A stretch of 64,000 nt of DNA, taken from Bombyx mori. Its lineage: Eukaryota; Arthropoda; Insecta; Lepidoptera; Bombycidae. Position numbers and translations under genes: made by a program. This document shows positions 7,574 through 64,000 of this stretch, piece after piece (positions within the stretch are counted from its first letter, which is position 1; every line of letters starts with the position of its first letter). Under the pieces are notes generated by a model. The model ran no database searches and had not been told where the DNA came from. It saw only the letters and a program-made list of their open reading frames with translations. The stretch lies in assembly GCF_030269925.1 (NCBI RefSeq), contig NC_085133.1, positions 8,824,001-8,888,000 on the forward strand, written 5' to 3'.

Positions 7574-8626
7574 CGAGGGCTGTACTAAAAGTATCGGGAA
7601 TGGAATATTTCCACTGTTACTGTCATATTAAAATCTTTTTAATTGAAAACTCCTTGGTTTTAAAAATCGAATACCATTTATTTATTTAAAAAAAGATTCT
7701 CGGTCTTGTCACGAGGTTTTGTCAAACTTGTTTAGTCGTTGAGAAAATGGAATTGACTCGAGAAAATTGAAGTTTAACACAAAAACAGTGTGTTGACCGG
7801 ATGATTTCTGCATTTGGTGATGAAGCCCCATCCAAAACCACAATTTATCGCTGGTTTGCTGAGTTTCAACGTGGACGTGTCAAGAAGCTCAGTGATGATC
7901 CCCGTCAAGGTCGTCCAAAAACTGCAGTCACCCAAGAAAACGTTGATGCTGTGCGTAAGCTGATTGAGGGAGATCGACATGTGACATACCGCGAAATTCA
8001 GGCAACTTTAGACATTGGCATGAGTCAAATTCAAATAATTTTGCTTGAACAATTAGGTGGAAAAAAGTTGTTTTCCCGATGGATACCGCATTCGCTCTGT
8101 GAAGAGCAAAAAGCGGCTCGCGTTACTTGGTGCGTCAGAACTCTCGAAAGATTCCACGCAGGATCCTCAAATGCTGTATACAACATTGTATCAGGTGACG
8201 AATACTGGATATACGCGTACGAACCCGAAACAAAAAATCAGTCACGAGTTTGGGTGTTCGAAAATGAGTTAAAGCCAACAAAAATTGTTCGTTCACGGAG
8301 TGTTGCAAAAAAAATGGTGGCCACGTTTGTCTCCAAAACCGGCCATGTTACGACTATTCCTCTTAAGGGACAAAGAACGGTTAATGCAGAATGGTATGCT
8401 AGCATTTGTTTGCCACAGGTCGTTTCTGACCTCCGTAAAGAGAACTGCAACCGCCACATCATCCTCCATCACGACAATGCGAGTTCTCACACCGCGCACA
8501 GAACAAAAGAGTTTTTAGAGCAAGAAAACATAGAATTATTAGACCATCCGCCGTACAGCCCCGACCTAAGCCCTAATGATTTCTATACTTTCCCTAAAAT
8601 AAAGAATAAATTGCGTGGACAGAGAC
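7574..8626 (+). pseudogene. Mariner transposase, C-terminally truncated
   Basis: A mariner-family element. A terminal-repeat-like sequence (cgagggctgtactaaaag) starts after a TA at 7572-7573. The natural start codon looks like 7747, but codon 8 (7768-7770) is TGA, so the open frame now begins at 7801. The remaining 275 or so residues read cleanly. They contain a helix-turn-helix N-terminal region, then GDEYW (Asp133), HHDN (Asp225) and SPND (Asp260), counted from 7801. The last two Asp have 34 residues between them, the DD34D arrangement of mariner. The frame runs into a Bm1 fragment right after the KNKLRGQR block, so the C-terminal end and the 3' terminal repeat are missing. Apart from these two lesions it looks young. 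Confidence 0.88.
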
Positions 8627-8753
8627 TTAGAACTTGTATCTCAAAGTGAGTGGCGCATTTATGTTGTTGATGTCTATAGGCTCCAGTAACCACTTAATAC
8701 CAGGTGGGTTGTGAGCTCGCCGAACTATGTAAGCAATAAAAAAAAAAACATCT
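8627..8753 (+). mobile_element. Bm1 3' fragment fused to mariner
   Basis: A 5'-truncated Bm1 beginning at the cttagaacttgtatctcaa block and ending in an A-rich tail. It abuts the mariner reading frame and supplies its last few codons and stop. I see no clear target duplication. Confidence 0.85.
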
Positions 8754-56198: not shown

Positions 56199-56765
56199 TT
56201 ACCGTTTTCGTTTCTTCTGAGGCGATTTAGTTTCTTCTTCCGCATTTCCATTGATCTGGTCGTCGTCATGCTGCTTTCTTCTAACCGGACCGGTGTGGGT
56301 AATAGGAACAGCTCTCTCGTCCTTACTCTGAGAGGATTTCGGAGCTATAACCGTCAACACCCCATCCGAAGACAGTCTAGATTCCACGGTCTCCGGCTTA
56401 CATCCTTCAGGCAGAGCATAACGACGCTTGAAATGGCGCGTAACGTAACCATGCTCATCTTGTTTCTCTTCGTGTTGTCCTTCGATCACGATGTACCCGT
56501 CCGCAGTCTTCACAGATATCTCCTCAGGCGTGAAATGTTGAACATCCAGATTGATCTGGAGTTTGTCTCTGTCAGTCTTGATGGTCGAACCGACGTCGCG
56601 AGCGGCAGCTGCCAAGTTTCGCCACGGACGTACATATTTCATGCGCACAATTGGCCGATCAATAATGTCCGCTAGAAAATCGTCCGGAGACAAATCCATA
56701 CCGAAGAGCTGGTCCCGAATGCGATGAGGACGCAAATCATCCAATAAGTATGGTAACAACGCCAT
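56199..56765 (-). CDS. Small heat shock protein (alpha-crystallin family)
   Basis: An intronless 188-residue frame of the HSP20/alpha-crystallin family, an ATP-independent chaperone that holds unfolding proteins. The N-terminal region (1-60) has the insect-type LLDDLRPHRIRDQLFGMDL start and an RPWRNLAAA segment. The alpha-crystallin domain spans about 65-143: DKLQINLDVQHFTPEEISVK, GYIVIEGQHEEKQDEHGYV, then RHFKRRYALPEG with the conserved Arg pair at 114-115, and SSDGVLTVIAPK. A VPI at 153-155 is the usual C-terminal anchoring motif. The extra C-terminal extension ends in SPQKKRKR, a plausible nuclear localisation signal and not typical of short lepidopteran sHSPs. The start at 56,765 is the first Met and matches the family N-terminus. 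Intronless structure suits stress-time expression. Upstream there are only weak heat-shock-element-like TTC/GAA blocks, so inducibility is unproven. Confidence 0.95.
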   Translation of the reverse strand: MALLPYLLDDLRPHRIRDQLFGMDLSPDDFLADIIDRPIVRMKYVRPWRNLAAAARDVGSTIKTDRDKLQINLDVQHFTPEEISVKTADGYIVIEGQHEEKQDEHGYVTRHFKRRYALPEGCKPETVESRLSSDGVLTVIAPKSSQSKDERAVPITHTGPVRRKQHDDDQINGNAEEETKSPQKKRKR

Positions 56766-57299
56766 CGCTTACGTTTTGTTGAAAAATTGCAGGAAAAACT
56801 CTGGAACTCGCTTAGAACTGGGTCATACACATACATAAGTTCAGGGTGTATGTTGTTTAAAAAGAATGGATTTTATTCAAATTAAATTATATCGGGACAT
56901 GAATTACAGTTACCATTTTAAATACAAATGATAATCAAGCAAAAAATTATTAAATTACCTGTGTAACTTATTTTTTAGTTTCCTATTATCCCTTTCTGTG
57001 GACTGTTCGCAAAGGCAGTTGCTACATTTCGATATCATTTATTGTTGTTTGGTGAGAGTTATCGTATAATAAAATGCAAATATATCTTTAGTATATATGT
57101 CAAATATTTAAAAATATGCATATAATTATTATAAATAGATTAATTTATAATAAAATTTTAAATAAACATTTAGTTACACGCAACCGCATCACTTCTGTGG
57201 ACTTAAAATTTCGCCAAAAAAATCAATATCTACTAAAAGTACTACTCACCACATTTTTTTTATACTGGCCACATTATAAAGCTAGCATTGGCCATTTTG
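56766..57299. promoter_or_regulatory. Divergent intergenic region between sHSP and DDE-like gene
   Basis: A 530-bp AT-rich spacer between the minus-strand sHSP start and the proposed plus-strand first exon. Imperfect TTC/GAA blocks at 56,785-56,815 lie close to the sHSP start. The motif (c/a)(t)ttctgtggac occurs at 56,992-57,003 and 57,191-57,202 and again at 61,618 and (inverted) 61,837. It could be transposon subterminal repeat. Confidence 0.4.
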
Positions 57300-57402
57300 G
57301 ATACAGCTACTGAGCGTTGGCGATCGTTCGGAATATTTTTTATAAATTCAGTGGTGATTTCGTAAAAGATCGGTAGAACTTTTCTGTTCCTGATATATTT
57401 CG
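57300..57402 (+). other. Proposed 5' non-coding exon of the DDE-like gene
   Basis: The 3' boundary is a consensus donor, TTTCG|GTAAGTAA (junction after 57,402). The 5' boundary is a guess. It lies just after cattggccattttgg, which includes a GCCATTTTG-type motif common near insect and vertebrate start sites. No long open frame, so it would be 5' UTR. Confidence 0.4.
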
Positions 57403-57428
57403 GTAAGTAATTATTGATTTCAACAATT

Positions 57429-60400
57429 GATGATGATGATGATTCATCCGACCGATTTCGGCCATGGCGACCACTTTGACTCCTATCCGTCGATTTGGCG
57501 CTCGTGCGCTCGAAGATGGCTTATATAGCCTATCTTCGCGGCAAAACTCCTTGCGCATTGAGGGCACGTAAGCACGCCGTTCTCATAATTATAGGTTATG
57601 GCAGCAGGTGGGCGGACCTTCAACTGGTCGCGTTTGTAATCAAGGTCAGCTTTACGCTGATCCTCGAGCTCGCGTACTTTGCTGTTCACCATCCTGCGCC
57701 ATTCTGGCCGCTGTGCTGCCAAGCGCTCCCATTGAGAGGGCTCTATATTACATCTCTTCATGTGTCGTTTCACGACATCCTTGTACCGCAGGAGCTGTCC
57801 GCCATGCTTTCGCTTGCCATCCTGCAATTCAGAGAAGAAGATGCGCTTCGCCACTCTTTCCTCCGCCATGCGTGATATATGACCGCACCATCGAAGCTGC
57901 CGACGCATTAAATATGACTCAATGCCACCAACATTGGCACGTCGCAAGACTTCGGTATTTCGCACTCTATCAGACCATCTGATTTTCATGATGGCACGAA
58001 GACATTTAAGGTGGAAGCGATCCAGAGTGCGAATGTGGCGGCGGTACACACACCACGACTCGGAGGAGTATAGGAGGCTTGGCAGCACAATTGCCATGTA
58101 AACTGAAATTTTAGTGGCCAACTTAAGGTCGTGCGAGCAGAAGACCTTGGAATATAGCTTTCCAAATGCTGCAGCAGCGGCACCGACCCTGCTATTGATC
58201 TCATCATCAAGGTCACACTTGGATGTTAAAGTGTTCCCCAGATAGCGAAATTTATCCACCTGCTTCAACACATCCTCACCAAGCTTTATGGTTAGTGTCT
58301 CGTGACCGTGACTGTCCAGGGACATCACCTCCGTCTTATTGACACTAATCTTCAGGCCGAATTTACGGCAGGCTTGGTGAAAAACGGACATCAGCTGTTG
58401 CAGGCCGTCTGGGGATTCTGCTAAGAAGCACAAGTCATCAGCATAAATGATCTCAGTGATCAATGCATACGACACTTTGGTGCGAGCCTTAAGTCTAGCC
58501 AAATTGAAAAGGCTGCCGTCCGTACGAAAGCGGATGCGGACTCCTTGGGAAACAGTTTGTAAAACCTCTCTAACTACGACCGCAAAGTACAAGGCGAACA
58601 GAGTAGGCGCTAAGACGCATCCTTGCTTCACCCCACAGGTAACGGGGAAGAAGCCCGTCTGTTCACCATCTACAGTGACGCAGCATTGCATGTCGTCATG
58701 TAGGAGTCTAAGAAGCGCCACAAACTTTTCCGTGCATCCGAGTTTCCGTAACACCAACCATAAGGCTTCGCGAGGCACGCTGTCAAAAGCCTTCTCCAGG
58801 TCAACAAAACAGAGGTACAGCTGACGACCCTGTTCTCTGCTCTTTTCTTGTAGTTGACGCACAGAGAAGATCGCTTCACATGTGCCTCGATCCGGTCGGA
58901 AGCCAAACTGAGTTTCGGGCAGGATCTTTTCAGATAAGTCCTTTAGGCGGTTTAAGAGTACCCTAGCAAATACCTTTCCGGGGGCCGATAGGAGCGAAAT
59001 ACCGCGGTAGGAGTCGCAGTCAGATCGGTCGCCTCTGTTCTTATAGAGAGCAGTTATGCGCGATACTTTAAAGCTATCCGGAACGCGCTCTTCCTCCCAC
59101 ATACGAACAAACAGTTCCCAAACCAACGTGTGCAAATCCTCTCCACCGTACTTGATCAGCTCTCCTGGTATAAGGTCAACGCCAGCCGCCCTTTTATTTT
59201 TTTGCTGTCTAATGGCAGTAACAACCTCGTCACGCAATAGGGGCTCGTCCAGCTCAAGGGCAAGAGGGAGTTGAGGCATTAAAGCGATGCTTTGCAGATC
59301 TGCTGATCGATCCACATTCAGCAGGGCATTGAAGTGCTCTGCCCAGCGCTTTAGTACATCCTCCTTGCTTGTTAAGAGGTGCCTACTATCCAGAGACCTT
59401 AAAGGAACCTTTGCATGATTGGATGTACCCATCAGCTTACGCACCTCGCTATAGAACTCACCGAGCTGGTTTGTGTCAGTGAGCCATTGCATATGAATAG
59501 CTTTGTCCTGCCACCACTTGTCTTTTATTTGTCGAGACAGCTTGCGCAATTCGAGGTCACTAGCTTTGACCGCCGCAACGCTTCCTTTACGCCTTCTGTG
59601 CTGTCGCAAGAGATCACGGTGTTTGTCGAATGCCGCCCGCAAAACCACATCATTTCCATCAAACCAGTCTTCATTGCGACGGCATTTCCTACCCAGTGCA
59701 ATTGATGCGGTATCCATGATATGAGATGATAAAGCGCCCCAGTCAGCATCAACATCACCTGTCTCATTAACTGGCAACAGGTTCTTAGACAAAACTTCAG
59801 CATAGTTCTTCCTCACCTCAGGATCTCTTAGCTTCTCTATGTCCAAAGACGCAAGCTTTTTCTTAGGAGATCTACGCGGGCGGCGAAGACGGAGTCGTAG
59901 CTTAGTGACAATAAGTCGGTGGTCAGACCAGCAGTGCGCACCACGCATAACGCGGGTGATCTGCACTTGGCTGAAATCTCTTTGCCTTACGATAGCATAG
60001 TCGATCAAATGCCAGTGCTTGGATCTTGGGTGCATCCATGTTGTCTTGTACTTAGCGGCAAGTCTAAACATAGTGTTCGTAATTGCTAGACCGTATTGAG
60101 CACAAAGACTGAGCAGCAACTGACCATTGCTGTTCATGTTGCCGACTCCATGTCTACCCAGAACTCCAGGCCAAGCCTCATAGTCCCGACCAACCCTGGC
60201 ATTGAAGTCGCCAAGCAATAGTACCTGCTCTCTGGCGTTTATGCTGTCAAGGCAAAGAGTCACTTCCCCATAGAATTTGTCCTTAATGTCATCAGACTTG
60301 TCAAGCGTTGGAGCATAGACACTGATGACATTAAGGTAATTGTCTTTGTTCAGGTGAACGCGCAGTGTGGTAACGCGGTCCGAGATATGTACAGGGTACT

Positions 60401-61503
60401 CCTCTAATCGCTTTACTAAGTGATTCTTGATGGCAAATCCTACACCTGAATGTCGCGTTTCAGAGGCAGCGGTACCTTTCCAAAAGAAAGTATAACCAGC
60501 ACCTACTTCCACCAGCTCTCCTTCATCGGCAAGATGTGTTTCGCTGAGAGCAGCCACATCTACGTTGTAACGATGAAGTTCCCGAGCTACTATGGCGGTC
60601 TTGCGTTCAGGGTAGGCGTTGCCATCTCGATCAAGAAGCGTTCTCACGTTCCACGCGCCAAATGTCATGATAGATGTTTTTATAATACTTCTTTTGCAAC
60701 GTCGACCACGATTTGACTGATGCAGTGGCAGCCGCGGTTACTACCACTTATCAAATGGGACGAGCAATTTTTAGGGCACCTTTTCTAGCCCCCTCCCCGG
60801 CTGAGCGGGGAAAGCAGTGCCTCCCTAAACAGGGCTGCTTTGTCATCTCGGGTGCTGCCGAACCCACGCTGTCGCCCCAAACTCGCAGCGCAAGAACGAC
60901 CACGGTGTGTACTCACACCCCCGAGACCGCCTATGTGCAGGTATCGGACAAAGCCTAGCTTACATCAGGCTAGACCTCTCTACTTCTACCCATCGCCACA
61001 GGACTTTTGCTTATTCGGAGTCCATTAACGGAAGCGGTCAGATACGCAGGATATATTTAGGTGCGCAAACGTTTGCGCTCACGCAGGCGCACACCCTCGT
61101 CCTATCCCTTCTTGGATCAGTGGAACGGGAAACCGCTACGACTGAAGAAGGGGTTGGATGTTGTGTCTGGCCGACGGTGACTACATGCCCTCCACCATCG
61201 CCCTAGGCCATCCACCTTGCCTTGCTGACCTGCCGAGTCCGCCAAGTCACGTTGCATATCTGCGTTGTGTTGCCTTCCTCGCCAAGTCAGACTTTGTATG
61301 TTAGGCGGGAGGGAGCCGCGTGTAGGGATGGGTATTAGAGAGATGAGGAGAAGAGGGAGTTAGGAGTAGGAAGGACAGGATACTGTAGCCACGGAAGAGT
61401 AGGTTGTGGTCTATAGTAGCTCAGGGAAGGCGGGATCGCATGCCCGTGCACTCAGTAATATACTACCGGACAAATAGTATATTTGAGGGCCCCCTGCCTC
61501 AAA
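57429..61503 (-). mobile_element. Complete LINE with 9-bp target duplication
   Basis: A 4,075-bp non-LTR retrotransposon. Target duplication tcaacaatt at 57,420-57,428 and 61,504-61,512. On the minus strand it starts with a GC-richer 5' UTR of about 835 bp, carries one long ORF, and ends after a 54-bp 3' UTR in GAATCATCATCATCATC. A short tandem-repeat tail like this, in place of poly(A), is seen in RTE- and CR1-type LINEs. Both ends and the ORF are intact, so it is probably full length and young. Confidence 0.85.
57483..60668 (-). CDS. LINE endonuclease/reverse transcriptase, intact
   Basis: A 1,061-residue protein. The N-terminal apurinic-type endonuclease has WNVR (6-9), SETH with catalytic Glu43, [12 protein letters not shown] (Asp154, Asn156), WHLIDY and WSDHR (His250 region). 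The central reverse transcriptase has [17 protein letters not shown] (588-597), FVDLEKAFD (Asp624), VKQGCVLAP and the catalytic YADD (743-746), then the KISVNKTEV and YLGNTL thumb-side motifs. The C-terminus carries a C2H2 finger CPQC-x12-H-x3-H (Cys1035, Cys1038, His1051, His1055). Every expected catalytic residue is present with no stop or frame shift, so it is potentially active in target-primed reverse transcription. A separate ORF1 is not evident upstream. The clade is uncertain (CR1/L2/Rex1/RTE-like). Start chosen as the first Met, directly preceding the endonuclease motif. Confidence 0.9.
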
Positions 61504-61512
61504 TCAACAATT

Positions 61513-62053
61513 ATCACGTAGCCGTATGGCCGTTCATGGAGTAATTTCGGAAATGTTTTTGTCTTATTTTCTAACCTTAAAAACTAAAAGAGCATTGTGA
61601 TTTTTTTATTGAATGTCCTTTCTGTGGACCCCTTTTATGTGGACTTGAATGTCCACGCGAAAGACAATGTCTGCAGAAAATATCACATTATTGATTTCAA
61701 AACTAAAACACTGTCTTACTTATCTCTTAACTAGATGACGTTGACTCCTTTGGTCGTGCATGCTATTAAATCTACATAACATGAATTTTAAAAGAGGTTG
61801 TCTTGTATTTTGGCCAATGCCTACACGAAAGAAAGTGTCCACAGAAAATCGTTCTTAAGTTTTCCAACTGATTCAGCAGCTTGTTTGTAAACGTGAACAA
61901 TGTGCATTGTGTATCATCGGTAGCTGATTTATATCCCCTGCTAGACCTCTGCTCCAAGACACGCTTCTTGCGTATAAACTAAAAGGGTTTGGCTTATTTG
62001 TATCTATTGCATGGTATGGTAGGTAGAAGTAAATATAGTTTAATTTGTTCCAG
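61513..62053. other. Remainder of proposed intron; repeated TGTGGAC motifs
   Basis: AT-rich with clustered (g)tccac/gtggac motifs: 61,618-61,629, about 61,639, about 61,651 and 61,837-61,847, in both orientations. Ends in a polypyrimidine tract and CAG. No open frame. Confidence 0.45.
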
Positions 62054-62057
62054 CTAC

Positions 62058-64000
62058 ATGATGCCACGTTCAAGTAGATCTAGGTTACAACTGAGTGAAG
62101 AACAAAAGAAAAAACGTAGGCGTGAGCAAAAAAAACTAAGTATGCGCAGAGCTAGATCAAAGTTAGATTCTGTTGCTCTTGAAGAAAGACGCAAAAAGGA
62201 CCGAGAAAGGTATCATCGTAAAAAAGAAGAGGGGCTGATTAAGACCATTAAAGACTTGAAACCCCGAGACCAGCGACAATTACGGAAAATGTGGCGAGAG
62301 AAAGCAAAACTTAGACGTGAGAAAGAGAAAATAAAAAGAACGACTGAGCAAATGTTACACGAAAATACACCCCCTTCAAGTCCACAACCATCATCTTCAC
62401 CACAACAATCATCTTTTTCACGAATTCGGTCAGGAAAAGCAGTAGGTGCACGGAATAAACGAAGATTGAAGGCTAAAAATGAATATTTAATAAATAGATT
62501 AATTGTTTTAGAACGAAAGCTAGCTAAATACAGAATGCGTCTACACAGAATTAAAAAAGGACAGAAACGAGGTAACACTGTACTAGTCAAACGAAAAATA
62601 CATGACTTTTTTATTGACGATGAGCATAGCAGACTCACAGCAGGCAAAAAAGAGACTATCACACGACGTAAAGTAAAAAAGCAAATACGTCTGTTGAATG
62701 ACACAATTCTCAATCTACACAAGATATTTAACAATAAGACGGGTTTAAACATATCATATGAGACATTTCGTAGACATCGTCCTTTTTGGGTGATATTTCC
62801 TAAAACAACTTCTAGAAATACCTGTTTGTGTCGTCAACATGCCAATAACGATTACATTGCTAGTGCTCTACATCAAGCTAAGATAATATCATTTTCTAAC
62901 GCCACTGATGTTGCCAGGTCGCTTTGCTGTGATAACATTCTGAGGGTTTCTTGTCTTGAACGAACATGTACCCTATGTTTTGAAAAAACTTTGGACTATA
63001 CGGTCATCAATGGGAATGACACGATTCTTTACCAAAGATGGGTCACTAAGAAAGTGCCCCAAATAATTAAAGGCAATGAAAAATTATGTCAAAAAACACT
63101 CAAAGAATGCGTCAGAACTTCTCATCAATTACTTGTTAATAAATTTAATATAAGTTTGTCGACATTTATGCAACATCTTGCAAATATAATGAACCAATAC
63201 AAGGCTATTCGATATATTAAACAAAACTTATCGCCATCACAAAGTTTACTGCATATTGATTTTTCAGAAAATTATTCCTGCAAATATGGATCAGAAGTTC
63301 AGTCAGTCCACTTTGGTGGATCCAAATCACAACTCTCGTTACACACTTGCGTTTATTATTCTGTTGATTCTCAGCCACCAACAAACCTTATAAAAACAAC
63401 ATCCATTTGCACTGTCTCGGAGAACTTACGACACGATCCTGTACTCATTTGCGCCCACTTGAAGCCCGTAATTGAAAAAATTAAATTGATTACACCAGAT
63501 TTGACAGAGCTGCATATATTAAGTGATGGACCCGCTACTCAATATCGTAATAAAACAATGTTCCATATGTTAGCAAACTATGTGAGCAAAATTTCAAATG
63601 TAGAAACTATTGTGTGGCATTTCAGTGAGGCTGGACATGGCAAAAGTGCTCCTGATAGCGTAGGTGGCTGTGTAAAACGCACATGTGACAAGGCTGTTGC
63701 AAATGGCCAAGACATATCAGGTATTGACAGTTTTGTTGATTGCGTAAAAGTCACCTGTAAAGGCATTGACATTATTCGTATTAATAATGATGTATCTGAT
63801 ATACAAAAAATTGCCGATGCTAACAAAGTACGCCCCTTCAAAGGGACCTTAAAAATTCACCAGATCACATGGAGCTCAAAATCTCCTAACATTATTCACT
63901 GCAGGCGACTAAGTTGCTTATTGTGTGCACCTCACATTAGGTGTACACATTTTAAAATTGGGCAAATTCAGATTGAATATATTTCACGAGATACAAAAGA
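62058..64000 (+). CDS. Transposase-derived DDE-like protein, 3' end outside window
   Basis: Open from the ATG at 62,058 (a second ATG follows at once) to the last base: 647 codons without a stop. The first 85 residues are extremely Lys/Arg/Glu-rich and probably helical or DNA-binding. A Ser/Pro/Gln linker (TPPSSPQPSSSPQQ) follows, then a second basic helical region (140-240). Cys/His clusters come next: C256-x-C258-x2-H261, C290-C291, and C299-x4-C304-x2-C307. The following region has HIDFSENY (Asp401), LSDGPATQYRN (Asp490) and WHFSEAGHGKSAPDSVGG (Glu524), a D-D-E arrangement with 33 residues between the second and third acids, as in many cut-and-paste transposases. Another cluster, C615-x4-C620-x2-C623-x2-H626-x2-C629-x-H631, lies near the window edge. 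Similar proteins occur in many animals, as I remember it, usually unnamed. The superfamily is not one I can assign. It may be an autonomous transposon gene or a domesticated one. Confidence 0.8.
   Translation, partial: MMPRSSRSRLQLSEEQKKKRRREQKKLSMRRARSKLDSVALEERRKKDRERYHRKKEEGLIKTIKDLKPRDQRQLRKMWREKAKLRREKEKIKRTTEQMLHENTPPSSPQPSSSPQQSSFSRIRSGKAVGARNKRRLKAKNEYLINRLIVLERKLAKYRMRLHRIKKGQKRGNTVLVKRKIHDFFIDDEHSRLTAGKKETITRRKVKKQIRLLNDTILNLHKIFNNKTGLNISYETFRRHRPFWVIFPKTTSRNTCLCRQHANNDYIASALHQAKIISFSNATDVARSLCCDNILRVSCLERTCTLCFEKTLDYTVINGNDTILYQRWVTKKVPQIIKGNEKLCQKTLKECVRTSHQLLVNKFNISLSTFMQHLANIMNQYKAIRYIKQNLSPSQSLLHIDFSENYSCKYGSEVQSVHFGGSKSQLSLHTCVYYSVDSQPPTNLIKTTSICTVSENLRHDPVLICAHLKPVIEKIKLITPDLTELHILSDGPATQYRNKTMFHMLANYVSKISNVETIVWHFSEAGHGKSAPDSVGGCVKRTCDKAVANGQDISGIDSFVDCVKVTCKGIDIIRINNDVSDIQKIADANKVRPFKGTLKIHQITWSSKSPNIIHCRRLSCLLCAPHIRCTHFKIGQIQIEYISRDTK

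Follow-up and report, generated by a model that had tools for sequence, protein, structure and literature searches.

The 64,000-nucleotide stretch of Bombyx mori DNA analyzed here (the window) ends within a long open reading frame, and we are confident that this frame encodes the transposase of a complete DNA transposon, most likely a cut-and-paste element and most likely of the Sola (Sola2-like) kind. The element is young, recently mobile and multicopy rather than domesticated, since an identical second copy lies elsewhere in the genome and exact 4-bp target duplications flank six copies. A first-pass annotation had placed the frame in no known superfamily and had regarded it as either a poorly described transposase or a domesticated derivative.

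The open frame and its product

The first-pass annotation was correct that the frame stays open for 647 codons to the window end, but the start that it gave, 62054, is out of frame. The stop-to-stop frame spans 61983-63998 and is still open at the window end; its first ATG is at 62058, and the first 647 codons of the gene occupy 62058-64000 on the plus strand. Extended to its stop codon in the genome sequence, as had been recommended, the frame closes 349 bp beyond the window end and encodes a transposase of 763 amino acids. The motifs HIDFSENY, LSDGPATQY and FSEAGHGKSAPDSVGG are all present, and D401, D490 and E524 stand where they had been reported. The best protein match of the window protein (P0001) is LOC134198688 of B. 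mori (97% over 88%). Pfam, NCBIfam and PDB sequence searches with the window protein returned chance-level matches only (Sec8_N at 0.018, a V-ATPase subunit at 0.46), and no Mos1 chain was among its PDB sequence matches at E ≤ 10. Elsewhere in the window, a 292-codon open frame at 7771-8649 (plus strand) encodes what we take to be a mariner-type transposase.

Ends, target duplications and copies of the element

A genome search with the window protein produced 37 matches, many of them fragments; four, including the window copy (locus L010, in which the window position equals the L010 position + 58000), span the whole protein at 98-100% and contain no stops. Several copies that are almost identical are spread over different contigs. 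Eight element copies were fetched, and comparison of their flanks gave a common right end and then the left inverted end. Both ends are present in six of the eight, and each of these six is bounded by an exact 4-bp target duplication (AACT in the window copy and L014, ATAT in L009 and L012, TTAT in L011 and ATTT in L015). A 3-bp or 5-bp target match at the same boundaries failed in all four copies tested. In L013 and L016, the sequence retrieved is missing one end or both. The inverted repeats and target duplications that the first-pass annotation had suggested looking for thus exist, as 12-bp terminal inverted repeats (TIRs) and exact 4-bp duplications in six copies.

In the window, the left AACT duplication (56816-56819) is followed by the 12-bp left TIR GGGTCATACACA (56820-56831, plus strand), which is perfect relative to the right end; these ends are common to the six copies that have both. 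Positions 1-609 of the element, its 5' part, lie at 56820-57428 (plus strand), where the full-length copy L009 aligns by blastn at 100%. The rest, from element position 610 on, begins at 61513, continues on the plus strand to 64000 and runs 613 bp past the window to the right TIR TGTGTATGACCC, with the right target-duplication copy at what would be 64614-64617. The window element without its nested insertion, from 56820 to 613 bp past the window end, is 3,710 bp long. A nested retrotransposon separates the left end of the window copy from the gene; a 5'-truncated, retrotransposon-like copy is ruled out by the left end found beyond the insertion.

L009 resides on another contig and is identical to the window element over all 3,710 bp, with its target duplication differing from that of the window copy. 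Damage is evident in other copies: HIDFSENYS has lost four residues in L011, the reading frame stops near residue 570 in L013, L014 and L015 are frameshifted, and an insert of 3.4 kb precedes the gene in L012. This insert had no blastn match to the retrotransposon nested in the window copy.

Nested LINE, neighboring gene and subterminal repeats

The insertion that interrupts the transposon is a 4,075-bp non-LTR retrotransposon (LINE) on the minus strand (57429-61503), flanked by a 9-bp target duplication, TCAACAATT, the first copy of which is at 57420-57428 and the second at 61504-61512. Its frame of about 1,084 codons (57483-60737) matches Pfam RVT_1 (1e-38) and Exo_endo_phos (7.7e-11); by eye it has a zinc-finger-like C-terminus, and the LINE has a GATGATGATGATGAT end. 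The order of events is that the transposon inserted and was afterwards split by the LINE.

The left end of the transposon (56820) and the start codon of a small heat-shock gene are 54 bp apart; the transposon lies on the upstream side, and the insertion is therefore in the promoter or 5' untranslated region of that gene. The heat-shock ORF (56199-56768, minus strand, with its ATG at 56765) encodes an HSP20 protein (Pfam E 3.3e-26).

The motif TTCTGTGGAC has four exact matches in the 64 kb, all of which are inside the element. Three are on the plus strand (56994-57003, 57193-57202 and 61620-61629; element positions 175, 374 and 717) and the fourth is inverted (61837-61846, minus strand; element position 934). 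A shorter motif, CTGTGGAC, occurs five times with at most one mismatch in the first 1,150 bp of the element, whereas 300 mononucleotide shuffles averaged 0.24 occurrences and never exceeded 2; this figure is descriptive only, as the motif was chosen after viewing the sequence. The TTCTGTGGAC repeats are candidate transposase-binding sites.

The protein family and its conserved residues

A protein search with P0001 detected 549 proteins at E ≤ 0.001, of which the best 120 were listed, and a second search with a divergent member, P0121, detected 827, again with the best 120 listed. The named organisms among the matches listed are moths, butterflies, beetles, a leafhopper, a stick insect, a wasp, a spider and one Wolbachia metagenome-assembled genome (MAG). 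The last of these, P0151, is filed under a Wolbachia pipientis MAG, a label that probably reflects contamination of the bin by the insect host. In the gene model P0117 of Araneus ventricosus, named ERI1 exoribonuclease 3, a transposase domain of the window type is joined to an RNase_T exonuclease domain; this is either a chimeric model or a real fusion. Scans of IMG/VR with P0001 and with profile A2, and scans of bacterial and archaeal genomes with profile A2, found no relative.

Alignment A2 comprises the window protein and 100 of the 120 listed matches, picked by eye (101 rows); most of the 20 omitted proteins were short or incomplete. Its invariant columns include D401, D490, H418, Y496, H527, G528, K529 and G536. 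The three acids singled out in the first-pass annotation proved to be conserved across these relatives, D401 and D490 in 101/101 rows and E524 in 99/101, and D533 is kept in 100/101. The exceptions at E524 are alanines in P0027 and P0041, both of which keep the remainder of the box, and the exception at D533 is a valine in P0094.

The Cys/His clusters that had been noted are likewise present, with most positions conserved across the 101 rows. In the internal cluster (62823-62978, plus strand), C256-x-C258-xx-H261 is followed by C290/C291 and C299-x4-C304-xx-C307; C256, C258, C291, C299, C304 and C307 are kept in 99-100 rows and H261 in 96, while C290 is kept in only 83. The C-terminal cluster, C620-xx-C623-x5-C629-x-H631 (63915-63950, plus strand), retains its three cysteines in 97-98 of the 101 rows and H631 in 93. 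Both clusters are putative zinc sites.

The box at 63633-63668 (plus strand) reads GHGKSAPDSVGG in the window copy. The first-pass annotation had found this box striking; it is present, yet it is an altered version of one that recurs, with variations, in each of the 100 aligned relatives. The commonest family form, GHGKGAPDGVGG, is exact in 46 of the 101 rows, and the remaining forms differ at other positions. Residues 530 and 534 are both glycine in 100/101 rows, the window protein with its two serines being the sole exception. The box is readable in seven genome copies: the window copy and its twin L009, to which Ser530 and Ser534 are confined, have the Ser form; L011, L012, L013 and L015 have the Gly form, and L014 has the Gly form as far as its frameshift. 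Since the Ser form occurs at two sites with different target duplications, it has presumably been mobilized at least once since it arose, whether by its own action or by that of another copy.

The silkworm genome contains further relatives. Of these, L019 and L020 have 743-amino acid open frames, the TIR GGGTGAATTTTCA and target duplications of AAGC and CTCT. The more distant L018 has a 686-amino acid open frame; a search for inverted ends at this locus yielded two short AT-rich pairs with unequal flanks, and its ends were not found. About ten genome fragments, most of them with one or a few stops, correspond at 50-57% to no more of P0001 than its N-terminal ~95 residues and are perhaps derivatives of another related family.

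Resemblance to DUF7869

Pfam family PF25273 (DUF7869) has 113 matches across the silkworm genome, for example L031, L024 and L041/L042. The last two are identical copies of a DUF7869 unit with TIRs, and 4-bp target duplications flank both of them. The TIRs of the DUF7869 transposon begin with CTAGGGTC. Because this unit, the one multicopy case examined, has TIRs and 4-bp duplications, DUF7869 looks like a transposase domain, which suggests that the Pfam family represents a transposase catalytic domain.

DUF7869 and the window transposase have the same order of strands and helices, with an Asp in strand 1, another at the end of strand 4 and one more as the third residue of the helix after strand 5. 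The spacing is D-x94-D-x41-D in DUF7869 and D-x88-D-x42-D in the window protein, and the motifs SDNCGGQNKNK and GHTQNEAD of the former have counterparts in SDGPATQYRNK and GHGKxAPD of the window family. Both elements make 4-bp target duplications, whereas their TIRs differ. In hhalign comparisons of the window family with DUF7869, the probabilities were low (6.9 to 37.8%), with P-values of 0.00034 to 0.0052. The PF25273 model did not match P0001 at E ≤ 1, nor any of 22 A1 members at E ≤ 5.

RNase H-like core and proposed mechanism

An AlphaFold model of the transposase contains an RNase H-like core, the fold for which the first-pass annotation had proposed a search, and the best matches of this core are retroviral integrase and Mos1. 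Foldseek comparison of the model with the PDB gave nothing at E ≤ 0.001; the best rows were a viral terminase nuclease, Argonaute and NurA, which are not transposases. These three proteins are also RNase H-like. In BFVD, a single uncharacterized phage protein matched at E ≤ 0.001. The window protein is a DDE/D-type transposase, encoded between TIRs with target duplications. Neither result that would have refuted the first-pass annotation, a lack of conservation of the three acids or of an RNase H-like core, was seen.

The first two catalytic acids of this predicted core are Asp401 (codon 63258-63260, plus strand), in strand 395-402 of the model, and Asp490 (63525-63527, plus strand), at the end of strand 484-490 and aligned with an Asp of DUF7869. 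The first-pass annotation had completed the triad with Glu524 (63627-63629, plus strand). Its first two members occupy catalytic places; the third is more probably Asp533 (63654-63656, plus strand), and Glu524 is probably not catalytic. In the model, E524 is in the loop after strand 517-522 and D533 is the third residue of the next helix, 531-548, which follows strand 5. The third acid of a catalytic triad usually sits on the helix after that strand. We favor D533 because the DUF7869 relatives keep an Asp at that column in 64/64 sequences and have no acid at the column aligned to E524, which is Ile, Leu or Val in 64/64.

We propose that the 763-amino acid protein would bind the element ends through its basic helical N-terminal part and the zinc clusters, and perhaps also bind the repeated TTCTGTGGAC sites. 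Asp401, Asp490 and Asp533 would hold metal ions in the RNase H-like core, which would free the element and join it to cuts in the target with a 4-bp stagger, and this stagger would give rise to the 4-bp target duplication. A cut-and-paste rather than a replicative route is most likely, judging from the kinship of the enzyme alone. The window copy retains both ends and an open transposase frame. However, its two Gly-to-Ser changes adjoin the probable catalytic Asp, and therefore its own activity is uncertain.

Alternative interpretations

A domesticated host gene of transposase origin is extremely improbable. The frame is open, and a locus that matches it closely carries an NCBI gene annotation, LOC134198688, both of which could be read as signs of a host function. 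However, that locus corresponds to the broken copy L005/L013 (C28:5158275-5159978), in which residues 566-628 are matched by a further piece some 4 kb downstream of the truncated frame, and very likely the gene model represents what is left of a transposon. The window element has intact ends and an identical counterpart at a second site with its own target duplication, and several of the other copies are damaged, none of which fits a domesticated gene. It also seems quite unlikely that the transposon is as drawn here and the catalytic acids are nevertheless D401, D490 and E524, with D533 structural. E524 is almost as well conserved as D533, and the 33 residues between D490 and E524 resemble the spacing of D-D34/35-E enzymes; against this stand the alanines of P0027 and P0041 in an otherwise intact box, the position of E524 in a loop ahead of the helix that bears D533, and the DUF7869 columns described above.

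With the D-D-D transposon as the preferred interpretation, its affiliation can be drawn differently. The family may stand as a separate transposase superfamily, a distant relative of Sola that has no more than the 4-bp duplication in common with it. No Pfam or NCBIfam family covers the window protein, profile comparison ties it only weakly to the DUF7869 transposons, and its likeness to Sola is one of features rather than sequence; nevertheless, the duplication, short TIR, size and probable D-D-D triad all fit Sola, which itself already spans three distinct subgroups (PMC4455052, excerpt), and we consider a separate superfamily rather improbable. Another arrangement, which we think unlikely, is that the GHGKGAPDGVGG-type proteins, for which there is no Pfam model, and DUF7869 form two deeply split branches of one arthropod D-D-D superfamily with 4-bp duplications; the window branch would then be a separate undescribed group with recently mobile silkworm copies, if it matches no Sola group.

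Relation to known transposons

The first-pass annotation saw no motif match to Tc1/mariner, hAT, piggyBac or P elements, and the target duplications exclude all four. Elements of the hAT and P superfamilies make 8-bp target duplications; they are excluded by the 4-bp duplication, a 5-bp match having failed in the four copies tested. Tc1/mariner uses a TA target (PMC10741241, excerpt) and is excluded by a duplication of 4 bp that is not TA. piggyBac and Kolobok share the 4-bp duplication length with the window element but use TTAA (PMC9587614, excerpt), and they are excluded by the absence of TTAA from all six target sites.

According to published descriptions, Sola elements encode a DDD transposase, produce 4-bp target duplications, carry TIRs of 11-1124 bp and are mostly 2-9 kb long (PMC10741241, excerpt). 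The window element has a 4-bp target duplication in all six copies with both ends, a TIR that reaches at least 11 bp (12 bp, perfect), and a length of 3,710 bp with an ORF for the 763-amino acid transposase. Because the target duplication, the short TIR, the size and the probable D-D-D triad fit, the element probably belongs to the Sola superfamily, to which it is likened by these features and not by sequence, and the label of unassigned superfamily can probably be dropped. The silkworm element is not named in the available excerpts of PMC10741241, PMC3627910, PMC9587614, PMC10294476, PMC4455052, PMC8634313, PMC5199201 and PMC9783078, and Sola is not mentioned in PMC3706591. DUF7869, PF25273 and the four motif strings were not found in the literature searched.

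As the element most likely belongs to Sola, an already named, little-studied superfamily, the value of these findings is that of a helpful identification and less that of a new system. Several hundred unnamed arthropod protein clusters (549 at E ≤ 0.001, and 827 with the divergent member) thereby gain a function, and the findings correct a probably misassigned catalytic residue, from E524 to D533. They also provide a young silkworm element with defined ends that is open to transposition testing. The family is large and has no Pfam model, and DUF7869 gains a probable function.

The three groups of the 2009 Sola paper by Bao are reportedly very low in identity and linked only by PSI-BLAST, a relation resembling the one seen here between the window family and DUF7869. 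In Repbase, Sola1, Sola2 and Sola3 are distinct subgroups that have diverged too little to be separate superfamilies (PMC4455052, excerpt). Dictyostelid Sola2 elements have TIRs of 12-13 bp or imperfect TIRs of 21 bp and AT-rich 4-bp duplications, and the one dictyostelid Sola2 transposase with a stated length has 888 amino acids (PMC3627910, excerpt). The window transposase differs in its length of 763 amino acids, and the sister family L019/L020 departs from the AT-rich pattern at both of its target sites. The window element resembles Sola2 in its 4-bp and mostly AT-rich target duplication, its 12-bp TIR, its size of a few kilobases and its one long transposase gene, the product of which is probably of the DDD type.
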